A stretch of DNA of 49,560 nt from Bacillota bacterium (GTDB lineage: Bacteria > Bacillota > Sulfobacillia > Sulfobacillales > Sulfobacillaceae), in assembly GCA_021797675.1 (NCBI GenBank), contig JAJZZH010000115.1:1-49560 (forward strand), written 5' to 3'. Positions within the stretch are counted from its first letter, which is position 1. Every line of letters starts with the position of its first letter. The translations under genes were made by a program, and so were the position numbers. Positions 11,821 to 47,351 of this stretch are shown here, piece after piece. Under the pieces are notes generated by a model. It was given only the letters and a program-made list of their open reading frames with translations. It was not told the DNA's origin and ran no database searches.

Positions 11821-12840
11821 TTACGTATGGTTACCCAGCTCGTCTTTTTCTTGACGGCCCAGACGTGACGATTCGCGGATAACCAAAATTGGAGCGATAC
11901 GAATTGTCTCCGAAGGACGGTCAGGCTGATCTAACCGATTAGCTAAGACTTCCACCGCCCGCGATGCATAATATTCCACATCAACGTGGACGGTCGTGAT
12001 GGCGGGTGCTGTTGCTTGAGCCGGTTCCAGGTCATCAAATCCCACAATGGCTACATCGTTCGGTACCCTAAGCCCACGCTCTTGCGCGAGATGCAACAGG
12101 TCCAGCGCGAGCAGATCGTTGACACAAAACCACGCAGATGGATAATCGGACAGTCCGTCCCAAAATAGGGCTATCAGGTCGGGATTGGCTTCGGTCCACT
12201 GCCATGACGGATGAAGCCCACAGGACTCCAGCGCCAGGCGATAGCCCTCCCACCGCTCCGCATAACTCGGCGAGTGCTGGAGGTCGCCCATGAATCCAAT
12301 CGTCGTGTGGCCCGCGTCGATCAAATGCCTAACTCCAAGGAACGCTCCATGGCGGTTTTCCGTGACGACTTTGTCACATGCGACCGTAGCATCATAATGG
12401 TCCATCCAGACGACCGGCGCTCGCGCCTTCAGCGCACGGACAAATTCGGGGGAAAATCGCGACAGGACTAAAATCACCTCAATGTTTCCGGGGGGCCATG
12501 CGGGAAGTCGCATTGCACGTTCATCCGCATCGCTGACCCCAAACACGGTGAGGATACACTCGCGGCGCGCTAATTCTTTTTGCAAGTTTTGGATTACGGG
12601 GCCAAAGAAAATTGTGGCGGGGGGCTGAAGCAACGATTCGTTAAAAACCAGGGCCACGCCTCGCAGGCTTCGCTGCCGTCTTGGCTTCCGCCGATACCCG
12701 AGTTGGCGCGCCATTTGATGCACTGCGGCACGGGTTTGCTCGCTTACTCCCGGACTACCGGCGAGGGCGAGCGATACCGCATTCTTCGAAATGCCTAGGG
12801 CATGGGCAATGTCAGCCATGCTCGGTTTGCGCGCCGACAT
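11821..12840 (-). CDS. LacI-family transcriptional regulator
   Basis: The 339-residue protein has a LacI helix-turn-helix at the start (SMADIAHALGISKNAVSLAL, residues 7-26), the hinge region (QLGYRRKPRRQRSL), and a periplasmic-binding-like sensor domain with VWMDHYDA, DAGHTTIGFMGD and VAIVGFDDLEPAQATAPAIT. It is divergent from the ABC transporter and beta-mannosidase operon and probably represses it until an oligosaccharide is bound. A near-palindrome overlapping its own promoter (12985-13006) suggests autoregulation. Confidence 0.92.
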   Translation of the reverse strand: MSARKPSMADIAHALGISKNAVSLALAGSPGVSEQTRAAVHQMARQLGYRRKPRRQRSLRGVALVFNESLLQPPATIFFGPVIQNLQKELARRECILTVFGVSDADERAMRLPAWPPGNIEVILVLSRFSPEFVRALKARAPVVWMDHYDATVACDKVVTENRHGAFLGVRHLIDAGHTTIGFMGDLQHSPSYAERWEGYRLALESCGLHPSWQWTEANPDLIALFWDGLSDYPSAWFCVNDLLALDLLHLAQERGLRVPNDVAIVGFDDLEPAQATAPAITTVHVDVEYYASRAVEVLANRLDQPDRPSETIRIAPILVIRESSRLGRQEKDELGNHT

Positions 12841-12959
12841 TTACGCTCCCCTTTCATGAACGCGATAGGTTTTGCATACCCGACACCGTAGGCACCCGAG
12901 ACGGGAACGACGCCGTGCTGGCCGTGATGGCTTCGAGTCTCGCCAAGTTTGTCACCCAA

Positions 12960-12989
12960 ATTGTAGCAGCGGAACCGCAATTCTGTCAA
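12960..12989 (-). promoter_or_regulatory. Promoter of the LacI regulator gene
   Basis: Read on the minus strand, TTGACA (12989-12984) and TACAAT (12965-12960) are separated by 18 bases. Transcription would start near 12953, leaving a leader of about 110 bases before the regulator ATG at 12840. Confidence 0.65.
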
Positions 12990-13006
12990 GGTTACAGTAA
13001 CTTGAC
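12985..13006. promoter_or_regulatory. Candidate LacI-type operator
   Basis: Within GTCAAGGTTACAGTAACTTG (12985-13004) plus two more bases, the arms GTTAC and GTAAC flank a central A, and GTCAA/TTGAC form the outer arms with one unpaired base. It overlaps the -35 box of the regulator's own promoter, a position suited to repression. Confidence 0.45.
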
Positions 13007-13284
13007 TAATCTCTACCGTAAATGTGGCGGTTAGGTCGGTCATTTCCGATGTGGCAGGAGCAACACCGCTGTTACCAGGGCGCTGGCGATGGCATTTTTT
13101 TCGGATTCCACCCCAATCAGCCAGGGCCGCGGAAAGGTCGCGCGGCAGGCCATAGCCATGTCGTCGTAGGTCATGTCAGCCATCCCGCCGCGACTGACCG
13201 GATGGTCGGTCAACAACCGCCCGGTCGACGGTTTTGGGATTGCGTCAACGCAGAATTCAAGTTCCTAGAATGATGGTTGAAACC

Positions 13285-13325
13285 ATAACCGGTAATTGAC
13301 ATCGCGCATTCGTAAATATTACTAT
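13285..13325 (+). promoter_or_regulatory. Promoter and candidate operator of the mannoside operon
   Basis: TTGACA at 13296-13301 and TACTAT at 13320-13325 have an 18-base spacer, a strong match to a sigma-A promoter. A near-palindrome ATAACCGGTAAT (13285-13296, 10 of 12 positions symmetric, CCGG centre) abuts the -35 box. Its right flank GTAATTGAC resembles GTAACTTGAC in the site at 12985-13006, so both may bind the divergent LacI regulator. Confidence 0.55.
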
Positions 13326-13757
13326 GGGAATGTGCCGCGATTAAGGAAAATTCTATGGATAGCGGAGTGTTGAGATGATTAGAGCACTGCTGGCGTACCG
13401 TCGCTTACGAATTAGCGCTCACCGGGATTCAGCACAGGGTCGGTGGCTTAAATCCTGGATCATAGAGTCATTGGCTTCGCGTCACGTTGGGTGGTGCAGC
13501 GGCACATGCTCACTTGGACGCGAAGGGAACGCCGCCGCATGGGCCCGGATAACGGGGAACGGTCAGTCTCCACGCAGGCAGTAACTACGAAAAGGGGGAG
13601 GTAACCGAGCAAGGCCTCGACGGCGGTTAACGCCAGCTGGCAACCAAAACGTCGACGATGCATCTGGGAAGCGCGCTGGCCTTAAGAACCGTTCGAGCAC
13701 TTGAGCCATCGTCAACCTCGAAGGATAGTGACTGAGCATACCTGAGGAGGAAATTTT

Positions 13758-15071
13758 ATGCGATACGTTTTCCACGCCAGAGCCATCGCGCTGGCCACGG
13801 CTACGGTGCTTTCGGGGATGCTGGCGGGAGTGGGCACCGAAGCGGGTATGGCCCAGGCGGCCACCACGTCGGGAAAAGCCCGGATTACCTGGTGGATCCC
13901 GTCGCCCAGCCCGATTCCCGGCACGTTGCATGCGGCCGCTCGGCGCTTTACGCAAAAAACCGGGATCAAAGTCAACGTGCAAAGTATTCCCTGGTCTACG
14001 TACTTGACCAAGATTACCACGGCGATCACCAGCGGCGTGGGACCTGACCTGATGGAGATCGGCAACACCTGGGCGCCGACCTTCGCCGTCTCCGGCGGCT
14101 TCGTGCCCTGGACCCCCAAGATGTTTCATGCGATTGGGGGCAAGAACCGGTTTTTGGCCACCAGCATGAAGGTCACCACGGCACCCGGCAAGCCCATCAT
14201 TTCTGTGCCGTTCTTGGGCCAAACGTGGCTATTGGAGTACAACAAGATCATGTTTAGGAAGGCCGGCATTGCATCGCCGCCGACCACCTGGGCGGCGTTT
14301 GTAGCCGACGCGAAGAAGCTGAGCCACCCCTCTAAAGGGATTTATGGCGCGGCAGCACCGATTGGCGCCAATTCTGCCCTCCAAACCTGGGACTGGATTT
14401 TGTTCCGCCAAGAGGGCGGCCACTACTATCGCCACGGCAAGCCGAGCATTACGTCGGCCGCCGACGTGAACACCTTGACCAACTTCGTCAGGTGGGTCTA
14501 TCCAGACCGAATTGTTAATCCAGCGTTGGTGGCTGACAGTACCGGCACCCTCTGCACGACCGAATTCGAACGGGGGCGGGCGGCCATGCTGCTCACCCAA
14601 AACCCGCAACAGGCCGTCACCGATCCCTCGAAGTACGGCATTGGATACGTGCCCCTGCCGGTCAAGATTCCGGTAGGCGGCGCCAAAATCATGTCGCACA
14701 TTGCCGGCGAAAACTTGGCCATCTTCAAGAACAGCAAGCACTTGAGCGAAGACTTAGCCTTCATCAAGTTCTTGACCAGCCCGGCGCAGCAGGAACAGAT
14801 CAACAAGAACATGTACGAACTACCGGTCACCCATGCTGGATTAAATACGCCGTACTTCCGGAAACCGGCGGAGAGTCGGTTCGGGCACATTTTAGCGAAG
14901 TATGCGGCCCCGATGCCCACCGAGCCTTCCAGCGCTACATTATTCAACGATGTGGGGGCAGCGACCATTTCGCTTCTGCGCGACGACGTGAGCGCGCACC
15001 ATATCACGCCGGCCCAGGTACGGTCGGCGCTGAATTCCGCCGAACAGACCGTGCTGGCTTCAGGCGGTTAG
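13758..15071 (+). CDS. ABC transporter sugar-binding protein
   Basis: The 437-residue protein belongs to the extracellular solute-binding family 1 (maltose/sn-glycerol-3-phosphate type). After the signal peptide (about residues 1-35, ending MAQAA) come ARITWWIPSPSPIPGTLHAA, FTQKTGIKVNVQSIPW, and GPDLMEIGNTWAPTF, typical of the first lobe, and later FERGRAAMLLTQNPQQAV and an EDLAFIKFLTSP segment. GAGGAGG precedes the ATG. There is no lipobox cysteine near the cleavage site. It is the first gene of the operon with two permeases and a beta-mannosidase, so the ligand is probably a mannoside or manno-oligosaccharide; that is inference. Confidence 0.88.
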   Translation: MRYVFHARAIALATATVLSGMLAGVGTEAGMAQAATTSGKARITWWIPSPSPIPGTLHAAARRFTQKTGIKVNVQSIPWSTYLTKITTAITSGVGPDLMEIGNTWAPTFAVSGGFVPWTPKMFHAIGGKNRFLATSMKVTTAPGKPIISVPFLGQTWLLEYNKIMFRKAGIASPPTTWAAFVADAKKLSHPSKGIYGAAAPIGANSALQTWDWILFRQEGGHYYRHGKPSITSAADVNTLTNFVRWVYPDRIVNPALVADSTGTLCTTEFERGRAAMLLTQNPQQAVTDPSKYGIGYVPLPVKIPVGGAKIMSHIAGENLAIFKNSKHLSEDLAFIKFLTSPAQQEQINKNMYELPVTHAGLNTPYFRKPAESRFGHILAKYAAPMPTEPSSATLFNDVGAATISLLRDDVSAHHITPAQVRSALNSAEQTVLASGG

Positions 15072-15367
15072 CCCTGGGCGGCTCCCAGGATATGGAGACG
15101 GCGGTTGGGACTGACGGGCGGTTTTGAACCGGTCGCAGCACCCCTTCGGCGCATCGCGCGAACAGGCCCGTCCCGCAGGACACGGGGCGGGCCACATGAT
15201 CGACGTGCCTGCTGACCGTGATGTGGCGCATCCTGCCGGTGAACTTCTTCCGACGGGTCCGGCTTCGCCGAGATCGCCCGTTGCGAGAACGTTCACCGTG
15301 GTGAGCAAGTCCGATCCGCCCGACATCACAACGAACAAACACGGTACTGAAGAAGGAGATCGGTATC
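15072..15367. other. Gap inside the mannoside operon
   Basis: About 300 bases separate the binding-protein gene from the first permease, longer than usual within an operon. Open frames cross it but lack family features. No T-tailed hairpin or clear promoter was found. GAAGGAGAT at 15352-15360 is the ribosome binding site of the permease. Confidence 0.4.
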
Positions 15368-16348
15368 ATGGCGCAAGGAGAAGCAAAACTGGCGAACACG
15401 GGCTCCGGTCCCGATCCTGCCAAGACTCCGGCCGCGCGTCGGAGTCGGCGGCACGTTCAACCGTATTTGGCGATTTTGCCGGCGGCCATTGCCATTACCC
15501 TGGTCCAGGTTGGGCCCATGCTGGTCGGGGTCGTGATAGGGTTCTTTCGCCTGACCCAGTTCACGATTGGCGACTGGATTCACGCTCCTTTCGCAGGCTT
15601 ACAAAATTTTGCCTTGGCGGTGAATGCCGGCGAGCCGATTGGGCGGGGGCTATGGATTTCGCTCGGGCTCACCAGTGTATATACCGTGCTGGTGGTCGCG
15701 ATTTCCTGGGTCATGGGGATCGCCGGAGCGGTGTTCTTAAGCGATCAGTTCCGCGGGCGCGGGGTGCTGCGGGGGTTGTTTCTATTGCCATACGCCATTC
15801 CTGCGTACGTAGGGGTGATGATTTGGACGTTTATGTTTCAGCCGAGCGGCGCCGTCAATACGTTACTCGGCAGCGATCTCCATCTGGTGGCTGCCAACAC
15901 GTTTTGGCTGGCCGGATCCAAGGCATTTCTGGCCATCGTGGTGACCGCCGTCTGGCGCACGTGGCCGTTTTCCTTTCTGATGCTGCTCGCCGGGCTACAG
16001 GGTGTGGCACCCGAGCTGTATGAAGCTGCCCGCGTGGATGGAGCCACGCGGTGGAAGGAGTTTCGGCACATCACCTTGCCCGCCATCCGAAGCGTGAGTC
16101 AGCTGCTGGTTTTGATCACCGGACTTTGGACATTTAACGATTTCACCACCCCCTTCGTCATGTTCAATACAGCGCCGCCCGCGGCGGCCAATCTCATTTC
16201 TCTGCAAATTTATGTTAATTCTTTTGTGGATTTGAACTTTGGTCTGGGGTCGGCAATGTCCGTGGTGATGATTGCCGTGCTGGTCGTGGCTGCCTTTTTG
16301 TACATCCGTCTCTTGCACATGCACGTCGGGGAGGTGCCCAATGTCTGA
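15368..16348 (+). CDS. ABC sugar permease, MalF/UgpA type
   Basis: The protein (326 aa) has six main hydrophobic segments and the binding-protein-dependent permease signature YEAARVDGATRWKEFRHITL (EAA loop, contacting the ATPase). The N-terminal 30 residues are charged and cytoplasmic. GAAGGAGAT precedes the ATG. It pairs with the next gene as the two halves of the membrane channel; their reading frames overlap by eight bases. Confidence 0.9.
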   Translation: MAQGEAKLANTGSGPDPAKTPAARRSRRHVQPYLAILPAAIAITLVQVGPMLVGVVIGFFRLTQFTIGDWIHAPFAGLQNFALAVNAGEPIGRGLWISLGLTSVYTVLVVAISWVMGIAGAVFLSDQFRGRGVLRGLFLLPYAIPAYVGVMIWTFMFQPSGAVNTLLGSDLHLVAANTFWLAGSKAFLAIVVTAVWRTWPFSFLMLLAGLQGVAPELYEAARVDGATRWKEFRHITLPAIRSVSQLLVLITGLWTFNDFTTPFVMFNTAPPAAANLISLQIYVNSFVDLNFGLGSAMSVVMIAVLVVAAFLYIRLLHMHVGEVPNV

Positions 16349-17186
16349 ATCCGTATCGTATCGCGTCGTCCGGGCGGCCGTACTTTTGTTCTTGGCCTTG
16401 TTCACCCTCTATCCGCTGTGGACGCTGCTGACGATTTCCTTGTCGACCGCGTCGGAAGCCGGTGCAACCTTCCGCTGGATTCCCCAAGTGCTCAGTTGGC
16501 ATGCCTATGTGGCGATGTGGAAAACCGCACCACTGCTGCACTATCTCCGAAACAGCGCCGTGGTCTCCAGCATCTCGGCCGTAGTCTCTTTGCCCATCGC
16601 CATTTTAGCGGCCTATGCCCTAACCCGCCATCACGTGAAGGGCGGTGCCGTGTTTTTAAGGGTGGTGCTGGCGACCCAGGCTTTTCCGGGCGTGTTGTTT
16701 TTGCTGCCTTTGTTCGTGATTTATGTCACCTTGCAAAATGCCCTCGGCATTCCGATGGACGGCACCTACTTAGGTTTAATTATCACGTATTTGACCTTTG
16801 CCTTGCCGTTTTCCATTTGGATGCTGACCGGCTACTTGGCTAGCATTCCGCAGGACGTTGAAGAGGCGGCGATGGTAGACGGCGCCGGCAAACTGCGCGC
16901 GTTTATCGTCACCACGCTGCGGGTAGCCATGCCGAGCGTGATGGCGGTGGGCGTGTTTACGTTCATGACCGCCTGGGGCGAGGTGCTCTTCGCCTCGGTA
17001 TTGACGGACAGTGCCACGCGCACCCTGCCCATCGGGTTGGAACTGTATGAAAGCGCCAAGGGGCTGGTTATCTATTGGAATCAGCTGATGGCCGCGTCGC
17101 TCACCGTGAGTGTCCCGGTCGTGGTGGGATTCTTGCTGCTTCAACGCTATTTTGTGCGAGGTTTAAGCGCAGGGGCGATCAAGTAG
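16341..17186 (+). CDS. ABC sugar permease, MalG/UgpE type
   Basis: Second permease subunit (281 aa) with six hydrophobic segments, the early family motif FTLYPLWTLLTISLS, and the EAA loop EEAAMVDGAGKLRAFI. ATG at 16341 overlaps the end of the previous gene by eight bases and follows GGGGAGGTG, so translation is coupled; a longer upstream frame lacks membrane features. It ends in the common permease tail YFVRGLSAGAIK. Confidence 0.9.
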   Translation: MSESVSYRVVRAAVLLFLALFTLYPLWTLLTISLSTASEAGATFRWIPQVLSWHAYVAMWKTAPLLHYLRNSAVVSSISAVVSLPIAILAAYALTRHHVKGGAVFLRVVLATQAFPGVLFLLPLFVIYVTLQNALGIPMDGTYLGLIITYLTFALPFSIWMLTGYLASIPQDVEEAAMVDGAGKLRAFIVTTLRVAMPSVMAVGVFTFMTAWGEVLFASVLTDSATRTLPIGLELYESAKGLVIYWNQLMAASLTVSVPVVVGFLLLQRYFVRGLSAGAIK

Positions 17187-17249: not shown

Positions 17250-19730
17250 TTGTATGGTTCGATGAGTTTAGACGGGGATTGGTTTCTCCGTTGGGCCGAC
17301 GGACAGCGCGGCGGGCTTCGATTTCACCCGCTTGCCGAGACGGACGCCCGCAAATGGATTCCCGCGCGCGTGCCGGGCGAAGTGCATTGGGATCTGGTGC
17401 GCGCAGGGCTGTTGGCAGAGCCGACCGAGGGCATGAACGTCCTCGCCGCCCGATGGGTGGAAGAGGCGTTTTGGACCTATCGGCGCACCGTGACCCCACC
17501 CCCAGCGGCGCTTTCCGGAAGAGCTTGGCTCCGCTTTCGCGAACTGGACCTCATCGCGCGGATTTTTCTCAACGGAAAATGCGTCGGCACGCATGCCAAT
17601 GCGTTCTATCCGTGCGAGGTCGAGATCACGGGAATGCTACGGCCTGGCGAGAATGTCGTGGCGGTAGAACTGGAAAGCGGCCTTTATACGGTGGCAGAAA
17701 AGTCCGCCGCGGGGTACTACCGCGGTTCAGAAGACGGACGTTTGTATAAACGCATGTGGCTCCGAAAACCCCAATTCTCGTTTAGCTGGGACTGGGCACC
17801 GCGCCTGCTTAATGTCGGGATTAGTCAAAGCGTCGAGCTCGTATGGGGGGATAGGGTGAAGCCGGGTTCCTTGGCGATTCGCTCCGAACTTTCCCCCGGC
17901 GGGGAGGAAGGACGGGTGCTGGTGCATTGGGAGGTCGAGGGGCTCGCCGGTGAGGACGTGGCCGGCCAGCTAGTGTTGGCCATGGAAGAAACGGGAGCAC
18001 AAACCGTGCGCGAGGTCGTCATCCGTCCCGGCACCAACCAGCTGCAGGGTGAGATGACGATCGCCAAACCCGAGCGCTGGTGGCCGGCGGACATGGGTCC
18101 GCAGACCTTGTATACGGTGATCGCCCAGTTGGAGATTGCCGAAGAACCCCCGATCGCGGTATCCCGGAAGGTCGGATTTCGCCACGTGGTGGTGGAAAAG
18201 ACGGTGCGGGATGACGGGGGACAGGATTTTGTCTTTGTGGTCAATGGAGAGCGCGTGTTCGCCAAAGGGGCTAACTGGGTGCCGGCGGACATCATCCCGG
18301 CGCGGGTGGACCATGACCGCTACCGTACGCTGATTGAACGGGCGCGGGAGCTCAATATGAATTTCCTTCGGGTTTGGGGTGGCGGTCTTTATGAACGCGA
18401 TGCCTTTTACGAGCTGTGCGACGCGAACGGTCTTCTGGTGTGGCAGGAGTTTGCCTTCGCCTGCGCGGCGTACCCGGCCCATGACGCCCAGTTTCTTGAG
18501 GACATTCAGGCCGAGGCGCGTTACCAGATTCGCCGGCTGGCGCATCATCCAAGCTTGGTCGCTTGGTGCGGCAACAATGAAATTGCGTGGTTGACCTGGG
18601 AGCAAACCGAAGGCATCATCCATCCCGATCACGCGTGGTTTCATCAAATATTGCCCCGCTTGTTGCAGGAAGAAGACGCCACCCGCTATTATCAGCCGTC
18701 GAGTCCGTACTCCACCGATACCGTGCATCCTAACGCAGACCGCATCGGGGATCAGCATCCGTGGAGCATCGGCTTTGAAAACATCGATTTTTATCAATAC
18801 CGTGAGATGGCACCAACCTTTCCCAACGAAGGTGGCATCCTCGGCCCGCCTTCGTTGCCAACCCTGATGGCGTGCCTTCCCGAAGGCCACCGGTACCCGC
18901 ACAGCTTTGCCTGGCAAATTCATGACAATAGCGTCGAGGATTGGTTTGCAACCTCAGCCATCGACCGATTAGTCCAGGAATGGGTGGGCAAGGATCCCGG
19001 CCGGCTCAGCCTGGCCGAATATGTGTATTGGGGCGGTCTGGTCCAAGGTGAGGGGCTTCGCGAGTACATTCACAATTTTCGCCGGAGAAAGTTTGCCACC
19101 AGTTCGGCCATTTTTTGGATGTACAACGACTGCTGGCCGGTCACCCGCAGCTGGACGGTGGTCGATTACGGCCTAAGGCGCACCCCTTCTTTTTATCCCG
19201 TCAGACGGGCCTTTTCCCCGATCACGGTGGTGGTTGCTCAGGAGCGGGGCGCCGTGTGCGCCTTTGGAATTAACGATGGCCGTACGCCCTGGCATGGAGA
19301 ACTCGAATTTGGCCTCCTCAGCCTGGACGGAACGGTGATTGCGTCCACCCGGCAAGCGGCGGCGATAGCCGCCAACGCTTGTGCAGAACTGGCCGCTTTG
19401 CCGTTAGCGGACTGGGAGACGGCCGGCTTTGCCGAGACGGTGGCTTATGCCGTGCTGTGGCAGGGACACCAAGTAGTCGCCCAAAATCGCCTGTTTCAGG
19501 CGCGCTTTCGCGAGATGCACTGGCGGCCAGCCGAAGTGGAAGTGAAGCGCGACGGCGAGATGCTGGTGTTTTGCAGTTCCGCGTATGCTTGGAATGTGGC
19601 CATCGATCTCGACGGAAATGCCGTGGGTGACAACTTTTTCGATGTCTGGCCCCATCTTCCCGTACGGCTTCCCTGGCCGGCGGACCGGAATCTTCCGTCA
19701 ACCCTCTTCGTTGGCAACTTATTGGAATAA
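17250..19730 (+). CDS. GH2-family beta-mannosidase
   Basis: This 826-residue enzyme has the GH2 beta-mannosidase layout: a jelly-roll domain (WFLRWADGQRG, VPGEVHWDLVRAGLL), a beta-sandwich, a TIM barrel and a C-terminal beta domain. The acid/base Glu is E444 in WCGNNEI; the nucleophile is likely E527 in FPNEGGI, where the family usually has SEFG. The barrel motif FLRVWGGGLYERDAFYELCD is strong. It probably hydrolyses beta-mannosides imported by the upstream transporter, in the cytoplasm (no signal peptide). TTG at 17250 follows GAGGGGG by eight bases; ATG at 17262 is an alternative. An exo-beta-glucosaminidase is less likely. Confidence 0.88.
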   Translation: MYGSMSLDGDWFLRWADGQRGGLRFHPLAETDARKWIPARVPGEVHWDLVRAGLLAEPTEGMNVLAARWVEEAFWTYRRTVTPPPAALSGRAWLRFRELDLIARIFLNGKCVGTHANAFYPCEVEITGMLRPGENVVAVELESGLYTVAEKSAAGYYRGSEDGRLYKRMWLRKPQFSFSWDWAPRLLNVGISQSVELVWGDRVKPGSLAIRSELSPGGEEGRVLVHWEVEGLAGEDVAGQLVLAMEETGAQTVREVVIRPGTNQLQGEMTIAKPERWWPADMGPQTLYTVIAQLEIAEEPPIAVSRKVGFRHVVVEKTVRDDGGQDFVFVVNGERVFAKGANWVPADIIPARVDHDRYRTLIERARELNMNFLRVWGGGLYERDAFYELCDANGLLVWQEFAFACAAYPAHDAQFLEDIQAEARYQIRRLAHHPSLVAWCGNNEIAWLTWEQTEGIIHPDHAWFHQILPRLLQEEDATRYYQPSSPYSTDTVHPNADRIGDQHPWSIGFENIDFYQYREMAPTFPNEGGILGPPSLPTLMACLPEGHRYPHSFAWQIHDNSVEDWFATSAIDRLVQEWVGKDPGRLSLAEYVYWGGLVQGEGLREYIHNFRRRKFATSSAIFWMYNDCWPVTRSWTVVDYGLRRTPSFYPVRRAFSPITVVVAQERGAVCAFGINDGRTPWHGELEFGLLSLDGTVIASTRQAAAIAANACAELAALPLADWETAGFAETVAYAVLWQGHQVVAQNRLFQARFREMHWRPAEVEVKRDGEMLVFCSSAYAWNVAIDLDGNAVGDNFFDVWPHLPVRLPWPADRNLPSTLFVGNLLE

Positions 19731-20370: not shown

Positions 20371-21171
20371 TTACTCCACCAACTGTTCTTCGGCGACCCG
20401 ATCTACCTCGACGAGCTCAACCCCATGGTCTAGCAAGGTTCGAAAATGGTCTGGAACGAAGTCCGTGATGACCGTGCGGATGTCTCGGATCGCCAGGTAC
20501 CCCTTTAGCTGCGCGTCCGTAAACTTTGTATGGTCCACAACCATAATGACCTCGTCCGCTGCCTCCACAATGGCTCGTCGAATATGATCCATGCTTTCGT
20601 TTAAGTTGCAGGGTCCCGCCAGCACATCGAATTTGTGACAGGATAAGATCGCGCGGGGTACTCGGAGCTTACGAAAAAAGGTCTCCGTGAAATCTCCCAC
20701 ATTGCATGCATCCATCGGATTGTAGCGCCCTGGAGCACAAAACACGGTAACATCTTGCTGACCCAATATTTCTAACAACGGAATAGAATACGTGTACACG
20801 ATGGGCGACGTTTTCAGCGCGAGGGCAACTTCTCGCACGGTGGTTCCACTATCCAAGACCACGACATCCCCATCTCGCACCCAGTGCTCTGCGACATAGC
20901 GCCCAATCCGGGCTTTGCTTTCAAATTCGGCTCGCTGACGGGTACGATAATCGGGCCCGAGTTGCAGGTCCGTCCTATGCGCGCGCAATGCTTGCGCCTT
21001 CGTGTTAGGCAAATAATGTAGCGTTTCGGCCGCCGCCAACACCCGCAGGCGGACATCCTCCCGCACATGTGGATGCCCAGCCAGGGCTCGGGACGCAGTG
21101 GTCGCCGATGTTTTGGCCAAGAGGGCGACATCTTTTATCGTCGCCTGGTCGGTTGTCCGTCTTCTAGGCAT
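20371..21171 (-). CDS. Chimeric regulator: LacI-type HTH fused to DeoR-type sensor domain
   Basis: Residues 11-62 are a clear LacI DNA-binding head: TIKDVALLAKTSATTASRAL, then VREDVRLRVLAAAETLHYLP and an ALRA hinge. From about residue 80 to 255 the protein follows the C-terminal domain of DeoR regulators instead of a periplasmic-binding fold: VVVLDSGTTVREVALAL, YTYSIPLLEIL, a middle NESMDHIRRAIVEAADEVIM, DHTKF, and TVITD. DeoR proteins sense sugar phosphates. The length (266 aa) also equals a DeoR protein. It follows a decayed FGGY kinase on the same strand and is divergent from the second ABC operon, which it probably controls. Confidence 0.88.
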   Translation of the reverse strand: MPRRRTTDQATIKDVALLAKTSATTASRALAGHPHVREDVRLRVLAAAETLHYLPNTKAQALRAHRTDLQLGPDYRTRQRAEFESKARIGRYVAEHWVRDGDVVVLDSGTTVREVALALKTSPIVYTYSIPLLEILGQQDVTVFCAPGRYNPMDACNVGDFTETFFRKLRVPRAILSCHKFDVLAGPCNLNESMDHIRRAIVEAADEVIMVVDHTKFTDAQLKGYLAIRDIRTVITDFVPDHFRTLLDHGVELVEVDRVAEEQLVE

Positions 21172-21215: not shown

Positions 21216-22340
21216 TCAGGCAACTGTCTCACCCCGAATAAAGCGGTCCGCGGCTGGAATGCGTCGTTGAATCCATTGATCCAGTGCACCTGGCGAGTTG
21301 AGGCAACCCCCTCCGACAAACCCCGCCAGCGCCCGTCGTCCGGATCGTGCGCGACCCCGTACGCCCCCTCCAGACAGCTGCGTGGATCTCGGCCACGCCT
21401 TCCAAAAGCGCCTGAAGCAAGTGTTCCCGGCGGTGCGTTCGCGGCGCCCCGAACTAGGCTCCCCGGACTCCCGAACGATGCGCGTTCCCCCAATACATGG
21501 CGAAGAAACAAGACGCCGTTTGCCCCTGGGGGAAATGGATTGCCCCGGTCGGGCCATCCTCCTCCGCGGGAACATCGTCGGGTATCCCAGGCTCTTCCCG
21601 GCCCCATTCCAGAGCTCCGTCAGGGCTCGACGCGCCCCGCTAAAGCCGTGGCCGTCCGGGGAGAAACGGAGATGGGACGAGGCGCAGCGACCGCTGAAGT
21701 CGCCCGACAACCCTCGGATGGTCGTCTTAGACTCGCGCCAAGATCACCGAGCCGAGGTAGATGAGCCGTTCTGGCACCAGGGACCCCTCGCGCAAACAGA
21801 CGGGACCCCGCCAACTAGACGGTTCGGAGAATATGGTGCCGATGAGTCGTCGCACCCCATAGTCTTTGACCTGCAGAATCCAGCGGGTTCGCTTCCACAC
21901 CATCGGCTCGGGGCGCGCATCCATCAGCGTAGGCGCGGCAGCGGTCAATTCGGTTTGAGAAACGGCAACGCCTAAAGGAGTCTTTCGCCGATCTGCAGGG
22001 AAATTCCTGTCGACTTCAGGAATTGCTGCAGCCCCACGCACGCCTGATCATATCGGGACTCGATCCAGCAATTATGTCCCATGGGCGTCCACGGGTGTAA
22101 TCGGGCCAAGCCGCCCGGAAAGACCGACGACTTTCGCTGACCCTTAACGCACCGGGTCTACCATCCCGCGGATGGCCCGCATCGTGGACGTCCCACTACT
22201 CCGCCGGATCTTGTTGCATTGCCCTACCCTCGTTGGCACGGCATCTGGCCCTCGCCTTGGACGCGATGTGCCTTCGGCGCGATATCCTACCGCTTGGCAC
22301 CCGGAAGTTCCGAACTCCGGTTCCATTCCCAGGAATTCAC
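21216..22340 (-). pseudogene. FGGY-family carbohydrate kinase, decayed
   Basis: Pieces of an FGGY sugar kinase occur in order but in different minus-strand frames. Near 22310: FGTSGCQAVGYRAEG (family ATP site, G-T-T-x-x-K-A). Near 22120: VVGLSGRLGPITPVDAHG. Near 22065: CWIESRYDQA. Near 21890: ILQVKDYGVRRLIG, matching the conserved K-D-Y. Near 21540: FPPGANGVLFLRHVLGERA. Near 21400: LLQALLEGVAEIH. The end near 21230 has DRFIRGETVA. Several frameshifts, stops and an internal deletion (about 1.1 kb instead of 1.5 kb) mean it is not functional. Xylulo-, glucono- or a related kinase are possible originals. Confidence 0.75.
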
Positions 22341-22666
22341 TCCCAAAGCCTCACCTCCTCGCCAAGATGGTTGCCAGGGTGTGAGTTCCGATCAGGGCAC
22401 GATGCCCGTCCAACCGTTGCCAAAGCCCCCCAATGACTCAACACGCGTCGGATTGGCCAAGCCCCGCGTAGACGCACGAACCATTATGTCAATCCGACTT
22501 ATAGCACCAGCCCCCCCTGGTGCTCACGCGCGCGGCATCTACGGGATCCATTCCAACCGATGTTCTCGCTATGCTTGCAAGCACCGACACCTGTCCCCTC
22601 GGCAACGGCAGTCGATGCTACGAACATGATCGGAATTCCGGAACTACACAATGACCTATTGCTGAA

Positions 22667-22698
22667 ACGTTGTCAAGAATACGTTGTCAAGATCAACG
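22667..22698. promoter_or_regulatory. Candidate operator: two ACGTTGTCAAGA repeats
   Basis: ACGTTGTCAAGA occurs at 22667-22678 and again at 22681-22692, offset by 14 bases. The second copy runs into an inverted arm: CGTTG (22682-22686) and CAACG (22694-22698) flank TCAAGAT. The site is about 50 bases upstream of the promoter -35 box at 22744, and is a candidate target for the chimeric regulator. Confidence 0.5.
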
Positions 22699-22743: not shown

Positions 22744-22773
22744 TTGACACACGATTCGCCATCATGCAATAAT
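22744..22773 (+). promoter_or_regulatory. Promoter of the second ABC operon
   Basis: TTGACA at 22744-22749 and AATAAT at 22768-22773 with an 18-base spacer form a good sigma-A type promoter. The start point would be near 22780, giving a leader of about 200 bases. Confidence 0.6.
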
Positions 22774-22977: not shown

Positions 22978-24495
22978 ATGCGAAGGGTGGGGCAATTTGG
23001 ACACCGTGGTCAGTGGCTTGGAGCAGGCCTCGTGGTGATGTTCAGTGCGACGATGTTGACGGGGGCTGCAAGCGCAACGGGAACCTCTCTTCACCGGCCG
23101 ACGGCGACGTCGGCGATTCCAAAGCTTAGATGGAAAGGGACCATCACCATGTGGGCCCAGACCTATACCCCTGATGTGCCGGGAGTCAAGTTGGCACCAG
23201 GGTCTCCAAAATTGCATGCCTTGGCTAATTTGGCCAAACAATTCGAGGCGATGTATCCTGGCATTCACATTCAGTTTATCAGCCAATCCGCGTGGAATGG
23301 GTCCAACGAGACGCTGCTGGCCAAAGCCGCAACCGGTTCTATGTATGATATCTACTTTGATCAGTTTTCCAACTGGAACGCACAATTGCCCAAAGGGATC
23401 GTTTATAACCTGATGCCCTACTTTAAGCAGCCGGACCCATACATTCGCGGAAACAAGAAATGGATGGGTATCATGAACCCCTACGTGGTATCGGAAACCG
23501 AACTCAATCTAGCCACGGATTACGAGGTAAACGGGGATTGGGTATCCTTTGCCTTCTACTATAATAAGAAGTTATTCCGGAAAGCGAGGATCACCCATAC
23601 ACCGAAGACGTGGGCCCAGTTCATCAATGACTGCAAGATCTTGCAAGCCCACGGAATTCAGCCAGGAGCAGATCTGTCGCGAATTGATTGGTATTCCCCG
23701 ATCGCACTGGGCAACTATCTAGGCCTAAAGACGCTGAAGAAGATATCAAGCTTCAGCTCAGCCAAGGGCATCACCAATTACGACGAAGCTATCGCGTACA
23801 AAAAAGGCATCTTGAATCCGCTGAAGAACCCTCGGGTGATGGCGTGGTGGCCGTTGTTCAAAACACTTTACACGAAATATTGGAATAAGGCCGTAGCCGC
23901 TGTCCCCATCAACGCCATTCCACCCAACGTGGTCAATGGCCAGAGTCTATTTGAGGCCGGTAAGGTTGCAATGATCTTCAACGGGAGTTGGGTTCCGCCC
24001 GAAGTGCCTAAGGGATTTCAGTTGGGATCATTCCCGTTTCCGAGCCTTTACGGTACGAGCCGCTACAGCACCAAATACAATGCAGCCGGAGCAGTTAACA
24101 ATCCAGGCGCCGCGTTTCAGTACGGAATTTCGACTCCCAAGGCCGACCACTCCATGAGCCAACCCGGAAAATTCCAAGCGGTATTGGATTGGCTACGGTT
24201 CATTGCAACTCCCCAGCACAACCAAGAGGTGGTAAATGAACTGGGATCGTTCATTCCGACCTTTAAGGGGACCGTGCCGATTAAGCCGTTTCGGAGTCAA
24301 GTTGCATTGATTAGCCGACCCTTGTACAAAACGGTGGGCGGAGAGTACTTAACGACCACGGCAGACACCGATCTGCGCTCGCTTTTCCAAGAATACGTTA
24401 CCGGCCACATCTCGTTCGCGGCGGCCAAACAGCAATATGGTTCAATTTTGGCGACGGCCGTCCGACAATTCCTGACGGCTAACCCGAAGCCTTGA
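22978..24495 (+). CDS. ABC transporter sugar-binding protein, second locus
   Basis: This 505-residue family 1 solute-binding protein is on the long side. A signal peptide covers about residues 1-37 with cleavage near ASA-TG; no lipobox cysteine is present. Domain landmarks are GTITMWAQTYTP, a segment FEAMYPGIHIQFISQSAW, TGSMYDIYFDQFSNWNAQL, FEAGKVAMIFNGSWVPPEV, and a C-terminal IATPQHN region. GAAGGAGTG precedes the ATG. It heads a cluster with two permeases, a dehydrogenase and a sulfatase, so a sulfated or otherwise modified sugar is a reasonable ligand, by inference only. Confidence 0.87.
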   Translation: MRRVGQFGHRGQWLGAGLVVMFSATMLTGAASATGTSLHRPTATSAIPKLRWKGTITMWAQTYTPDVPGVKLAPGSPKLHALANLAKQFEAMYPGIHIQFISQSAWNGSNETLLAKAATGSMYDIYFDQFSNWNAQLPKGIVYNLMPYFKQPDPYIRGNKKWMGIMNPYVVSETELNLATDYEVNGDWVSFAFYYNKKLFRKARITHTPKTWAQFINDCKILQAHGIQPGADLSRIDWYSPIALGNYLGLKTLKKISSFSSAKGITNYDEAIAYKKGILNPLKNPRVMAWWPLFKTLYTKYWNKAVAAVPINAIPPNVVNGQSLFEAGKVAMIFNGSWVPPEVPKGFQLGSFPFPSLYGTSRYSTKYNAAGAVNNPGAAFQYGISTPKADHSMSQPGKFQAVLDWLRFIATPQHNQEVVNELGSFIPTFKGTVPIKPFRSQVALISRPLYKTVGGEYLTTTADTDLRSLFQEYVTGHISFAAAKQQYGSILATAVRQFLTANPKP

Positions 24496-24521
24496 ATGAC
24501 GCGTCGAAAGGGCGGTGGGCA

Positions 24522-25421
24522 ATGACCAAGTCAGATTCGGGTTCAAGGTTGCGTGTTTCCGGAAGGTCCGATGACCGTATCGCGGCGCTCTTCATTGCCC
24601 CCGGACTGTTCATGATCTTGGTGTTTAGCTATTATCCTGTGGTTCGTTCGCTAATCGGAGCGTTTACGAGTTGGGACGGATTTAATACCCCGGTGTTTAA
24701 CGGACTGGCAAATTTCTGGGGGTTGGCGCACGACACCGTGTTTCTGCATGCATTGTGGCACGTTGGACTGTGGGTGATAATCGCCGTTCCCTTGGCGATT
24801 ATCCCTTCGTTTTGCGTGGCCGAGCTCGTGTTTAACCTTAAGAACCAAGGTGCCCAGCGAGCCTACCGGGTTGCGTTCGTTCTGCCCATGGTGCTGCCAG
24901 CAGTGGTGCCGATTCTTATTTGGGAGTTTGGCATCTACGATCCGGGGGGAATCTTGGACCGGATTTTGGGTGTGTCGACGACGTGGTTACTGAGCACGCA
25001 CACAGCCCTGTGGGCCATGATCCTGATGGGATTTCCTTGGGTGAGCCCGTTCAACTTTCTGATCTTCCTTGCCGGACTGCAAAACGTGGATCCGTCGTTG
25101 TTCGACGCCGCGCAAATCGATGGGGCGGCATTGTGGCAACGAGTGGTTCACGTCGATGTTCGCTTGGTTATGGGACAGGTGAAGTTGCTCATTGTGCTTG
25201 CGGTCTTGGGCAGCGCGCAGAATTTACTCGTTCCTTTGCTGCTCACCGGCGGAGGGCCGTTGAACGCGACGATGACCCCGGTGCTGGACATGTATCAATC
25301 CGCCTTTGTGGGCGATCAATACGGATACGCTATGGCCATCTCCTTGGTTATGTTCGTCTTTATCATGGTGCTGACCTTGGCCAATATGCGGTTTTTCAAC
25401 CCCCCCGGCACCGAAGGATAG
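24522..25421 (+). CDS. ABC sugar permease (MalF type), second locus
   Basis: Six hydrophobic segments and the permease pattern are clear: FIAPGLFMILVFSYYPVVRS near the start and the EAA-type loop FDAAQIDGAALWQRVVHVDV, where the usual Leu-Pro at its end is replaced by Arg-Leu. ATG at 24522 is preferred over a TTG at 24492 that overlaps the previous gene, because a G-rich sequence (AAAGGGCGGTGGG) precedes it and the TTG lacks one; the TTG remains possible. It pairs with the next permease. Confidence 0.85.
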   Translation: MTKSDSGSRLRVSGRSDDRIAALFIAPGLFMILVFSYYPVVRSLIGAFTSWDGFNTPVFNGLANFWGLAHDTVFLHALWHVGLWVIIAVPLAIIPSFCVAELVFNLKNQGAQRAYRVAFVLPMVLPAVVPILIWEFGIYDPGGILDRILGVSTTWLLSTHTALWAMILMGFPWVSPFNFLIFLAGLQNVDPSLFDAAQIDGAALWQRVVHVDVRLVMGQVKLLIVLAVLGSAQNLLVPLLLTGGGPLNATMTPVLDMYQSAFVGDQYGYAMAISLVMFVFIMVLTLANMRFFNPPGTEG

Positions 25422-25493
25422 CCAAGGGGCGCGGGTTCGTGGGTACGCATGGGCAATGATCGGATAGATATTCTCATTGAGGTGATCTCATCG

Positions 25494-26330
25494 ATGCGGA
25501 TACGGATTCGTGACGTGCGGTCTCATATCGTTTTGTTAGTTATTGCCGCCTTGGTACTTTATCCGATGTGCTATATGCTCATCAACGCCCTAAATTCAGG
25601 TGTTACGACGGCCACGAATCCTTGGTGGTTCGGGTCCGTCATGCATTGGCAGAACTATCGCGATGCTTTTGCGGTCGTCGCGCCAGCCTTTCTGCGAACC
25701 GTGACGATTGTGGTGCTGAGCGTAGCAGGAACGTTGGTTTGTGCGTCACCCGCAGCCTATGCGTTTTCCCGATACCGATTTCGATGGCGTAATGTCCTGT
25801 TTATGGTGTTCTTTGCCTTATTGCTGATTCCGGGATTTGTGACCCTGATTCCGTTGGTGTTGGAGATTCGGGGACTCGGACTGACGAATACCATGTGGGG
25901 TCTCGTTTTCCCGTACATCGCAGGTGGGCAAGCTTTCGGAGTCTTCATTTTGCGGACGTTTTACCAGCAGATGTCTCAGGACCTCATCGATGCCGCTCGC
26001 ATAGATGGCGCAACCGACACGCAGATCTTTGTTGCGGTGGCGGTACCCTTGGCGGTTCCGGTGATGATTACGGTTGCCATTTTGCAGTTTGTGGGGCTCT
26101 GGTCCGATTACGTGTTGCCGTCGCTCATTCTCAGCAGTTCCAATCCCACCGTGGCCATGGCCATCACGAATTTTTCTCCGCCGATGATCGCCGGGGACGC
26201 CGCCAACTTGAGCGGCTTGAACATGCAATTTGCTTCGTTTGTATTAGCCTCTATTCCCATTGGTGTTTTGTTTGCGTTTTTAATGCGGTATTTCGTCCAA
26301 GGGATTACGAGTGGGGCAGTCAAGCTGTAA
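25494..26330 (+). CDS. ABC sugar permease (MalG type), second locus
   Basis: The 278-residue permease has six hydrophobic segments, ALVLYPMCYMLINALNSG at the start, the EAA loop IDAARIDGATDTQIFVAVAV, and the tail RYFVQGITSGAVKL. ATG at 25494 follows GAGGTGAT by seven bases; an upstream in-frame ATG at 25449 has no comparable site. No ATPase gene follows, so the complex must borrow one encoded elsewhere. Confidence 0.87.
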   Translation: MRIRIRDVRSHIVLLVIAALVLYPMCYMLINALNSGVTTATNPWWFGSVMHWQNYRDAFAVVAPAFLRTVTIVVLSVAGTLVCASPAAYAFSRYRFRWRNVLFMVFFALLLIPGFVTLIPLVLEIRGLGLTNTMWGLVFPYIAGGQAFGVFILRTFYQQMSQDLIDAARIDGATDTQIFVAVAVPLAVPVMITVAILQFVGLWSDYVLPSLILSSSNPTVAMAITNFSPPMIAGDAANLSGLNMQFASFVLASIPIGVLFAFLMRYFVQGITSGAVKL

Positions 26331-26404
26331 CCCAACCGTGGATGATATCCTGGATCGGGTCGACGGACAGGCGCGGATCGCCAATGTGAGGAAAGGACTA
26401 ATCG

Positions 26405-27499
26405 GTGACGACCCCTGTAACCCCTGTAGATAATCCGTCCCTTCCACATCGCACGTGGTGCCTTGATGGGCCGAATCAGCCTCGTTTGATCGAATTGGGC
26501 ACTTGGTCGCAAGCGGACGGCGGCGACCGTATTCTGGTGGCGAGCGCATACGCGGGATTATGTGACACGGACGCAAAAATCTGGCGTGGAACGGCGGCCA
26601 ACCCGTTAGTCCGGTATCCGATTATCCTTGGTCACGAGTGGATCGGACGGGTCGTAAAGGACGCGCAACGCCGTTTCCCACCGGGCGAATGGGTGGTAGT
26701 CGAAGGCTTCACCCCGTGTCGACACTGTCGCGAATGTAATCGTGGCCACAGCAATTGGTGCCTGAGTCCTGCGCATAGCGGAATCACCTATGATGGAGGC
26801 TTTGCTCCATGGTCCTGGGTACCGGCGTCAGCGCTACACGCGGTGAGCCCGCACCATTCGCCACAAGCCTATATATTCGTCGAGCCGGCATCCAGCGTGA
26901 TTCGAGCCGTGGACCATCTTGTGGATCGGCGGTCGCGCAGCGTGCTGGTATTGGGGATGGGTTCCGTGGGTCGATTGGCTGTCCTGTTGCTTCGTGATCG
27001 GCTCCCTCAAGTCACGATAATGACCTACGACCCTGTGGCGACGCGCAGCCAGTGGGCCGGTCGTTACGGGGCTATTGCGGTCGAATCGGTTGAGTCGGAA
27101 ATCGCGGATGCGGTTATCGAATGTTCGGGCACCATTGACGGGTTTACGGCGGCATTGCGGGCGGCGCAGGCTCAAGGTGTAATCGCGCTGGAAGGTGTAC
27201 CGGAGCGCGGGGAGACAGCCGTCGTGGCACCGGCGATGATGCATTTTAAGGAACTCACGCTCTTTGGCATTTATTCGTCGACGATGCAGTCTTTCCAAGA
27301 AAGTCTGGACTGGGTAAGCCGGCGGGAAGCGGAGCTGGCGAGCATGCTGGAGGGGCCTTATGGTGCCGCTGACCTGCCGAAATTGATGGAAAGGTTGGCG
27401 AGCCCGGATCGTCGCGGCAAGCTCTACATATCCTGGCCATCGGATATCAACGCTGAGAAAGTGAGGCAGTCCCTTGAGGATTCTGTATTTGGATATTGA
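26405..27499 (+). CDS. Zinc-dependent MDR alcohol/polyol dehydrogenase
   Basis: The 364-residue enzyme is a medium-chain dehydrogenase. The catalytic zinc ligands are indicated by GLCDTD and GHEW; the structural zinc lobe has four cysteines in CRHCRECNRGHSNWC. The nucleotide-binding fold begins VLVLGMGSVGRLAVLLLRDR (G-x-G-x-x-G). This pattern fits sugar or polyol dehydrogenases such as glucose, sorbitol or threonine dehydrogenases. GAGGAAAGG precedes the GTG start. It overlaps the sulfatase gene by 26 bases, so the two are coupled. It probably oxidises the imported sugar before or after desulfation. Confidence 0.85.
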   Translation: MTTPVTPVDNPSLPHRTWCLDGPNQPRLIELGTWSQADGGDRILVASAYAGLCDTDAKIWRGTAANPLVRYPIILGHEWIGRVVKDAQRRFPPGEWVVVEGFTPCRHCRECNRGHSNWCLSPAHSGITYDGGFAPWSWVPASALHAVSPHHSPQAYIFVEPASSVIRAVDHLVDRRSRSVLVLGMGSVGRLAVLLLRDRLPQVTIMTYDPVATRSQWAGRYGAIAVESVESEIADAVIECSGTIDGFTAALRAAQAQGVIALEGVPERGETAVVAPAMMHFKELTLFGIYSSTMQSFQESLDWVSRREAELASMLEGPYGAADLPKLMERLASPDRRGKLYISWPSDINAEKVRQSLEDSVFGY

Positions 27500-28940
27500 T
27501 ACGCTTCGCCCCGATCATTTGCCTGCGTACGGCTATGACAGGCCCACGGCACCCGCGATCACCCAACTCGCCCAGGAAGGCGTGACGTTTTCCGAGTGCT
27601 ATGTCAGCGATTCACCGTGTGTCCCCTCCCGGGCGGCGCTGGTCAGCGGTCGATTCGGCATTCATAACGGCGTGGTCACCCACTGGGGTGCGGGTGCGGT
27701 CTTTCGGATGCCCGTGTATGACGGCGACTGGGATCAGGTCTATGCGGAACAGGCTCCCCTCTTTCCACGGTATTTACGGGCCCAAGGCTTTCATACGGCG
27801 ACGATTTCATCGTTTGCCGACAAGCACCAAGCCCCGTGGTACTTATTGGGATGGGCGGAGGTGCAGAATTTTACGTTAAAGCGCGGCAACGAAGACGCCG
27901 AGGAAGTTGCTGAACGGGCCATCGCATGGCTGAGGGAGCACGGAACGAAAGAAGACTGGTTTTTACACGTCCATTTTTGGGATCCTCACAAGAACTACAC
28001 CATGGACCCTGCGTGGGCGCAAATCTTCCGGTCGTATACCGCGCCGGGATGGCCGGATGCGCAGACCATCGCCATGCAGCAAGATCCTGCATCGGGTCCG
28101 GGCAGTGCGGCAGATCTTTGGGGCTGGGGCGACCGCAGGACCAGTCCTGTCCCAACGATGCCGCACGCGATTCGTGGTGTCGAAGACTTGAAACACCTGG
28201 TGGACGGGTATGATGGAGCCATTCGTTATTTAGACAGTCAGATTGAACGACTACTGGATTGTTTGAACACCTTGGGAATACGGTCGGAGACCGCCGTCAT
28301 CGTGACCTCGGACCACGGAGAATCGTTCGGAGAGCATGGCTTATACGCTCAGCATGCCGATGCGGGGACGGCCGTCCATCACGTTCCCCTGATTATCCAA
28401 TGGCCAGGGCTGGTTGCTGGCGTTTCTTGTTCGCGATTGGTGTATCTGCAAGATATCGTCCCAACGATGATGGAGCTTTTGGGCCGACCGCTTCCTGAGG
28501 GATGGGATTTTCATAGCTTCGCCCAGGTGCTTGATCCCGCGCGGCACGCGAACGGGACGTGGGACCATCTTGTCTGGGGTCACGGATTATACGTGTGCCA
28601 GCGTGCGGTCTTCCAACCGCCTTGGTTTTACATTCGAACGTATCACCCAGGGGTATTTCGTTGGGATGACGAATGTTTGTACCATGTTGACCTAGACCCC
28701 CACGAAACCCGCAATCAAATGGTGCAAGAACCAGGCATCCTGAGCCAACTGCGCGCCCATCTGGCCGCTTGGATCCGGGACAAGCTCGGTGAAGGGCAGA
28801 TGGATCCCATGGAAGAGGTGGTGCGCACCGGGGGACCGTACCGTTACGTGAAACCCGAACCGTGGATGCGTCATTTGCAGGCGATTGGGGAACCCATGGC
28901 TGCCGAGCGTATCCGACATCAGGAACGAAACCCATGGTGA
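27474..28940 (+). CDS. Sulfatase, formylglycine type, no signal peptide
   Basis: The 488-residue protein belongs to the alkaline phosphatase/sulfatase superfamily. The first metal loop is LYLDIDTLRPDHL; the formylglycine site is C49-V-P-S-R53 in SPCVPSRAALVSGRFG; the second metal site is VIVTSDHGESFGEHG. It would hydrolyse a sulfate ester (or a phosphodiester or phosphonate monoester, as some relatives do). There is no signal peptide, so it acts in the cytoplasm. The start is TTG at 27474, inside the end of the dehydrogenase gene. Activity needs Cys49 conversion by a formylglycine-generating enzyme or anaerobic maturase, not seen here. Confidence 0.87.
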   Translation: MRILYLDIDTLRPDHLPAYGYDRPTAPAITQLAQEGVTFSECYVSDSPCVPSRAALVSGRFGIHNGVVTHWGAGAVFRMPVYDGDWDQVYAEQAPLFPRYLRAQGFHTATISSFADKHQAPWYLLGWAEVQNFTLKRGNEDAEEVAERAIAWLREHGTKEDWFLHVHFWDPHKNYTMDPAWAQIFRSYTAPGWPDAQTIAMQQDPASGPGSAADLWGWGDRRTSPVPTMPHAIRGVEDLKHLVDGYDGAIRYLDSQIERLLDCLNTLGIRSETAVIVTSDHGESFGEHGLYAQHADAGTAVHHVPLIIQWPGLVAGVSCSRLVYLQDIVPTMMELLGRPLPEGWDFHSFAQVLDPARHANGTWDHLVWGHGLYVCQRAVFQPPWFYIRTYHPGVFRWDDECLYHVDLDPHETRNQMVQEPGILSQLRAHLAAWIRDKLGEGQMDPMEEVVRTGGPYRYVKPEPWMRHLQAIGEPMAAERIRHQERNPW

Positions 28941-46691: not shown

Positions 46692-47351
46692 TTAAAGCAC
46701 CAGATCGGGTCCTTCGTCGGATCGCGCCGGATCTTGCGCGCCCAGGTCGGCATGGATGGCCTCCTGAAGTTTTTGTCGGTAGTTGCGCAATCCGTCTAGC
46801 CGCGATGAAAACACGCGGGTAATGGCCAGCAAATCTTGAACCAGTTCTTCTTCAGGGGATAACTGTTCTTGATTTAACACGAGAATTTCGCACGCATGTT
46901 GCTGACAGAACCGCTCGAACCACTCATAGCCGAACCGGGTCAAGCGATCTTTATGGGCCACCATCAAGGTGCCGACGGCACCGGATTCCACCGCGTCCAT
47001 CAGAGCGAGAAATTTCTTGCGACCAAAATTCATCCCCCCTCCGATTTCTTCAACAAACTCCACATTGGCTAGCCCGCGGGCGACACAGAAATCTTCTAGG
47101 ACTGTCCGTTGGTGTTTAAGATCGGTGCGCTGGCTTTGACTACTCACCCGACAATAGGCCACCTGCCGACGGGGACCCCGATGCACCGTCTCTTGCCGAA
47201 AGCGGGCAATTTGTTCCTCCGTGTAATATCGACGGTTAGTGGCAGTGCGTCCGGAGGGCACCAGACGCCCCTCGCGATCCCACCGTTGCACCGTCTTCAC
47301 CGTCACTCCTAACAGCTTAGCCACTTGAGCGCTAGTTAATGTGGTCTTCAT
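46692..47351 (-). CDS. IS607-type serine recombinase (TnpA)
   Basis: The 219-residue protein has a MerR-like helix-turn-helix (SAQVAKLLGVTVKTVQRWDR, then EGRLVPSGRT) and the small serine recombinase core VAYCRVSSQSQRTDLKHQ, with the nucleophilic Ser in RVSS, VEEIGGGMNFGRKKFLALM, and LMVAHKDRLTRFGYEWFERF. This is the transposase of IS607 family elements. No TnpB follows it. A TATAAT box (47364-47359 on the minus strand) lies only seven bases before the ATG, so the mRNA would be nearly leaderless. Confidence 0.9.
   Translation of the reverse strand: MKTTLTSAQVAKLLGVTVKTVQRWDREGRLVPSGRTATNRRYYTEEQIARFRQETVHRGPRRQVAYCRVSSQSQRTDLKHQRTVLEDFCVARGLANVEFVEEIGGGMNFGRKKFLALMDAVESGAVGTLMVAHKDRLTRFGYEWFERFCQQHACEILVLNQEQLSPEEELVQDLLAITRVFSSRLDGLRNYRQKLQEAIHADLGAQDPARSDEGPDLVL

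Follow-up and report, generated by a model that had tools for sequence, protein, structure and literature searches.

The gene at positions 20371-21171 of a 49,560-nucleotide stretch of Bacillota DNA (hereafter the window) raises the question of whether one regulator can carry the DNA-binding head of one repressor family on the sensor body of another, and what such a protein would bind at either end. The gene lies on the minus strand, the plus strand across the same interval containing stops, and encodes 266 residues from an ATG start (P0001). A sequence-only reading had assigned residues 11-62 to a LacI helix-turn-helix and hinge and residues 80-255 to the C-terminal domain of DeoR, and had explained the combination by a domain swap. 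Our profile searches agreed with it on these points. In Pfam, the entire LacI profile PF00356 matched residues 11-56 (21004-21141, minus strand, coordinates derived from the residue numbers) with 50 bits against a cut-off of 27, and the DeoRC profile PF00455 matched residues 84-237 (20461-20922, minus strand) with 102.6 bits against 31.8, both matches being well above the curated cut-offs and far beyond chance. Pfam reported no periplasmic-binding-type effector domain (PF00532, PF13377, or PF13407) in the window protein, which has DeoRC instead, and no winged helix-turn-helix of the DeoR kind (PF08220 or PF08279 type) at E values up to 1. The NCBIfam models split the protein in the same manner: those of the LacI-type repressors GntR, UriR, GalR, and CytR matched approximately residues 5-68, and those of the DeoR-type repressors GlpR, AgaR, and SrlR matched from approximately residue 73 onward. 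Considering that both domains are also present in all 12 aligned fusion members, we have confirmed a domain-swapped regulator with a LacI head and a DeoR sensor body. The window also holds an ordinary LacI regulator (11821-12840; PF00356 and PF13377), a canonical contrast to the fusion, which is divergent from a solute-binding-protein and permease row, regulator and row together spanning 11821-17186; the row continues into a GH2 beta-mannosidase-like gene (17250-19730).

The predicted structure agrees with this division. The AlphaFold2 model, built from a 12-sequence alignment, had a mean pLDDT of 82.8; confidence was low for residues 1-6 and for residues 58-78, the latter being the hinge and linker. 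In the Foldseek search, the best matches were four chains of E. coli DeoR (7l6l; TMt 0.83-0.86), followed by eIF2B subunits and ribose-5-phosphate isomerases, and VIA-align to 7l6l gave a Z of 23.3 over 177 residues, the next best being 14.8. The predicted C-terminal part has the sugar-phosphate-isomerase-like fold in the form seen in DeoR. Searches of PDB sequences with the window protein alone matched LacI-family heads; the family profile ranked the E. coli DeoR sensor (7l6l) first, with mostly LacI-family heads behind it. Between the two domains, a hinge helix is placed at residues 57-64 (20980-21003, minus strand) by the alignment and by a low-confidence helix of the model at the same residues. 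In LacI and PurR, the hinge leucine inserts at the CpG of the operator. The window protein retains this leucine at L62, a position that we take to be that of L56 in LacI numbering, and nearly all relatives retain it as well.

The gene neighborhoods of the relatives point to the kind of ligand. In most of the Alicyclobacillaceae loci examined, and in the genome G056, the fusion leads an operon whose further genes encode a DUF1537 kinase, PdxA2, and a KdgT-type permease. DUF1537 is the four-carbon acid sugar kinase family, and the operon kinase was nearest to D-threonate kinase in NCBIfam, although below the cut-off of that model; the operon dehydrogenase passed the PdxA model and also matched D-threonate 4-phosphate dehydrogenase. 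In the sister genome (L039), the fusion is instead preceded by an FGGY kinase and a mannitol-1-phosphate-dehydrogenase-like (MtlD-like) protein. Since a kinase and a dehydrogenase possibly acting on its phosphorylated product accompany the sensor in both settings, the ligand is likely to be a phosphorylated sugar derivative made by the operon kinase. The DeoR-family regulator VdtR controls erythronate and threonate genes in Brucella, and its DNA binding in vitro was unaffected by the free acids (PMC10580937). The intracellular sugar-phosphate signal that had been read from the sequence is plausible in terms of both fold and gene neighborhood. A short open reading frame after the sister fusion (L039 3950-4201, plus strand) resembles the beginning of a sulfatase (LNVVMILSDQHSVRALGCYGNP), and a sulfatase gene also lies near the window regulator (27474-28940).

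In the window itself, the regulator stands beside debris. Immediately upstream of it lies a decayed FGGY carbohydrate kinase pseudogene (21391-22332, minus strand) with several stops and with its pieces in different frames, and a C-terminal shard of an MtlD-like gene (21222-21302, minus strand; 27 residues, 56% identity, E 0.001) occupies the same position relative to the regulator as its counterpart in the sister. Judged from these sequences, the debris at 21222-22332 is what remains of the operon that is intact in the sister, that is, of the lost partners of the regulator. An intact kinase and dehydrogenase pair, 76-77% identical to that of the sister, is found on another contig of the window genome, with no fusion adjoining it and with no family box above 6.7 bits around the cluster (G000:C43). 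These losses, together with the lack of a significant operator in the window by either the box scan or the family dyad search, would fit a gene that is itself a relic, without a target at present and turning into a pseudogene. On the other hand, the open reading frame of the regulator is intact and retains all conserved sensor residues, and its differences from the sister (0.32, 0.22, and 0.64 at the three codon positions) lie mostly at third positions, while the neighboring genes have many stops. This pattern indicates purifying selection, although the signal integrates the entire period since the split from the sister and is not specific to the period following operon decay. We consider a relic unlikely, although it is the strongest of the alternatives. 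Because the kinase and the dehydrogenase have decayed while the regulator is intact, the reading that we prefer is that the regulator probably controls something else now.

A candidate operator lies at 22663-22689 (no strand), where two CpG-centered boxes, TGAAACGTTGTCA and AGAATACGTTGTCA, form a 14-bp direct repeat. Of all boxes in the 49.6-kb window, the one most like those of the family (22676-22689) is located in the gap between the kinase pseudogene and a divergent transporter operon, and the second similar box adjoins it. The score of the box alone was not significant in the scan of the window, and the 27-bp family dyad was absent from the window at up to 3 mismatches; the operator therefore stays a candidate, and so does the present target. 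In pattern scans, the core of the candidate had one mismatch-free match in the window's own genome and only 1-mismatch matches in the sister genome, at about the control level. As the pattern of the shuffle test was read off the site itself, that test shows that the 14-bp direct repeat is non-random and not that the site is an operator. A promoter-like TTGACA-18-AATAAT (22744-22773, plus strand; one found against 0.7 expected in shuffles) precedes the divergent operon, and the cluster (22978-28940, plus strand) encodes a solute-binding protein, two open reading frames read as ABC permeases, an alcohol dehydrogenase, and a sulfatase. This transporter and sulfatase cluster is perhaps the present target of the window regulator. 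Elsewhere in the window, an open reading frame at 46692-47351 (minus strand) reads by eye like an IS607-type serine recombinase, with a MerR-like start and a CRVSSQSQR motif.

Across the family, the operator is far clearer. A double CpG-centered box with a CG-to-CG spacing of 13 bp was found in 11 fusion loci, placed just after a -10-like element of the fusion operon, as in TGAATACGTTTTCAGAAAACGTATTCA of A. dauci and AGAATCCGATTTCAGAAATCGATTTCA of A. fastidiosus. LacI-family factors typically recognize even palindromes centered on CG (PMC4052901). In a leave-one-out model, the promoter site was the best site in all 10 loci tested (27.6-42.8 bits), and the next match in the scan, with 11.8 bits, was a shifted overlap. 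When four whole genomes were scanned, the double-box pattern occurred at every fusion promoter and at one other place (1 mismatch), and the reversed-pattern control gave zero matches in the same genomes. The double operator was absent next to the fusion gene in L043 and L044, where the fusion stands further back in a longer gene row. It might be argued that a global regulator of the LacI family, such as CcpA, is what binds the boxes, considering that single boxes resemble cre sites and that the PDB search with the family profile placed CcpA heads among the closest relatives of known structure for the fusion head. However, the sites of a global regulator should recur, whereas the double box with its fixed 13-bp spacing is nearly unique in each of the four genomes, a count that covers double boxes and not single cre sites, and it is the only strong match in every fusion locus that has the operator. 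We thus disfavored cre sites as the source of the boxes and regard this alternative as quite improbable.

The near-unique double operator at the fusion promoter and the kept hinge leucine together make it very probable that the LacI head of the family functions as such. The LacI-style operator recognition claimed from the sequence is well supported across the family, while for the window protein it has a candidate site only. Since the operator sits over the likely transcription start, repression is suggested, and the fusion is most likely a repressor. In the sister fusion (L039 2887-3723, plus strand), the hinge asparagine and leucine, which are kept in other members, have been lost (YRVVRPSRSV). 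With neither the hinge leucine nor the P-N motif in its aligned sequence, the sister protein may read its operator without leucine insertion, and the window branch may read DNA differently.

The distribution of the fusion suggests how often the swap has occurred. Full-length fusions were found in 3 of the 154 genomes of the class, namely G056 and the two genomes that represent the window's genus, with 363-385 bits against at most 121 bits for DeoRC-only matches. They were also found in 17 of 41 Alicyclobacillaceae genomes. In a survey of 398 genomes of the phylum, the window's own genome gave 433 bits and all others at most 115 bits, and among 72,556 plasmid records the sole fusion recognized was that of A. 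dauci. About 20 genomes in all carry the LacI-DeoRC architecture, in counts that independent fusions with both halves strongly diverged from the family would escape. An artifact of assembly or frameshift joining two neighboring genes, which the 242 contigs of the window genome might suggest, is ruled out for practical purposes by the same continuous architecture in the Alicyclobacillaceae, including the chromosome of A. fastidiosus and the plasmid of A. dauci, which come from independent, finished genomes. When 79 DeoRC domains were placed in a tree, the 14 fusions formed one clade (support 100/99), which splits into the window pair on one side and the Alicyclobacillaceae, G056, and two Bacillota bins on the other. 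On this tree, the simplest reading would be that the swap arose once. With 1.0 changes per column, the fusions sit on a long branch, which means either that the swap is old or that fast change came after it. Two equally scoring copies were observed in G544 (C1:3704386-3705141 and C2:34301-35056), the second matching in coordinates the copy on the A. dauci plasmid (L038) and the other being on the larger contig.

We propose that a single swap set a LacI-type helix-turn-helix and hinge helix onto a DeoR-type sensor. The LacI heads would bind the double CpG-centered operator immediately behind the -10 element and shut off the operon to which the regulator belongs, and the DeoRC domain would bind a phosphorylated sugar derivative from the operon's kinase, after which the protein would leave the DNA. 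The ligand may be of the threonate or erythronate 4-phosphate type in the Alicyclobacillaceae and, in the window's genus, a phosphate that an FGGY kinase makes. The partners have decayed in the window genome, leaving the regulator to control probably another target, perhaps the divergent transporter and sulfatase cluster. Taken as a whole, this explanation of a single-swap regulator, most likely a repressor, with a double LacI-type operator, release by a phosphorylated sugar, and a new target in the window, appears to us probable.

Nothing relevant to a LacI-DeoR fusion was found in the open-access literature, although the architecture may be listed somewhere; it is not unique to the window, given its presence in about 20 genomes. 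RefSeq names the A. dauci plasmid member (WP_268043573.1) a LacI family DNA-binding transcriptional regulator, a label that on its own would suggest the wrong ligand class, and this annotation is corrected here. The periplasmic-binding-protein core of LacI proteins controls the folding of the hinge helix on DNA. A natural protein having a LacI head, a hinge leucine, and a CpG operator but a DeoR core allows the requirements of LacI allostery to be tested directly, and the fusion could serve as a template for biosensors joining LacI operators to DeoR-type sensing. With somewhat less assurance than for the explanation above, we favor the view that these regulators are a small, undescribed Bacillota family of single origin, in which LacI hinge-helix and CpG operator recognition would be driven by a DeoR (sugar-phosphate-isomerase-like) sensor, with LacI-type hinge allostery working without a periplasmic-binding-protein core.

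Compared with known systems, the fusion shares its DeoRC sensor and fold with the DeoR family (E. coli DeoR, GlpR, AgaR, and Brucella VdtR), and the Alicyclobacillaceae fusions share with VdtR the kind of pathway, that of four-carbon sugar acids, but a LacI helix-turn-helix and hinge stand in place of the N-terminal DeoR winged helix-turn-helix. With the LacI/GalR family (CcpA, CytR, and PurR), the fusion family has in common the helix-turn-helix, the hinge helix leucine, and, as predicted, a CpG-centered operator near the promoter of an autoregulated local operon, whereas its operator is double, 13 bp apart, and its DeoRC sensor replaces the periplasmic-binding-protein core. The definition of LacI/GalR includes a C-terminal effector domain of the periplasmic-binding type (PMC4052901). 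Within the family, WP_268043573.1 has the architecture and clade of the window protein, to which it is about 36% identical, but it has an intact threonate-type operon and the family operator, both missing in the window. Among natural chimeras, the nearest precedent is that of Bacillus subtilis AraR, which combines two sugar-regulator families (PMC4218819); AraR carries a GntR winged helix-turn-helix on a LacI/GalR-type sensor, whereas the fusion carries a LacI head on a DeoR body. Natural chimeric sugar regulators are known, and it is the combination of a LacI head with a DeoR body that appears to be new. By its anatomy, the fusion falls short of each parent family by one defining domain, yet it would work like both, with LacI-style operator binding and DeoR-style induction.
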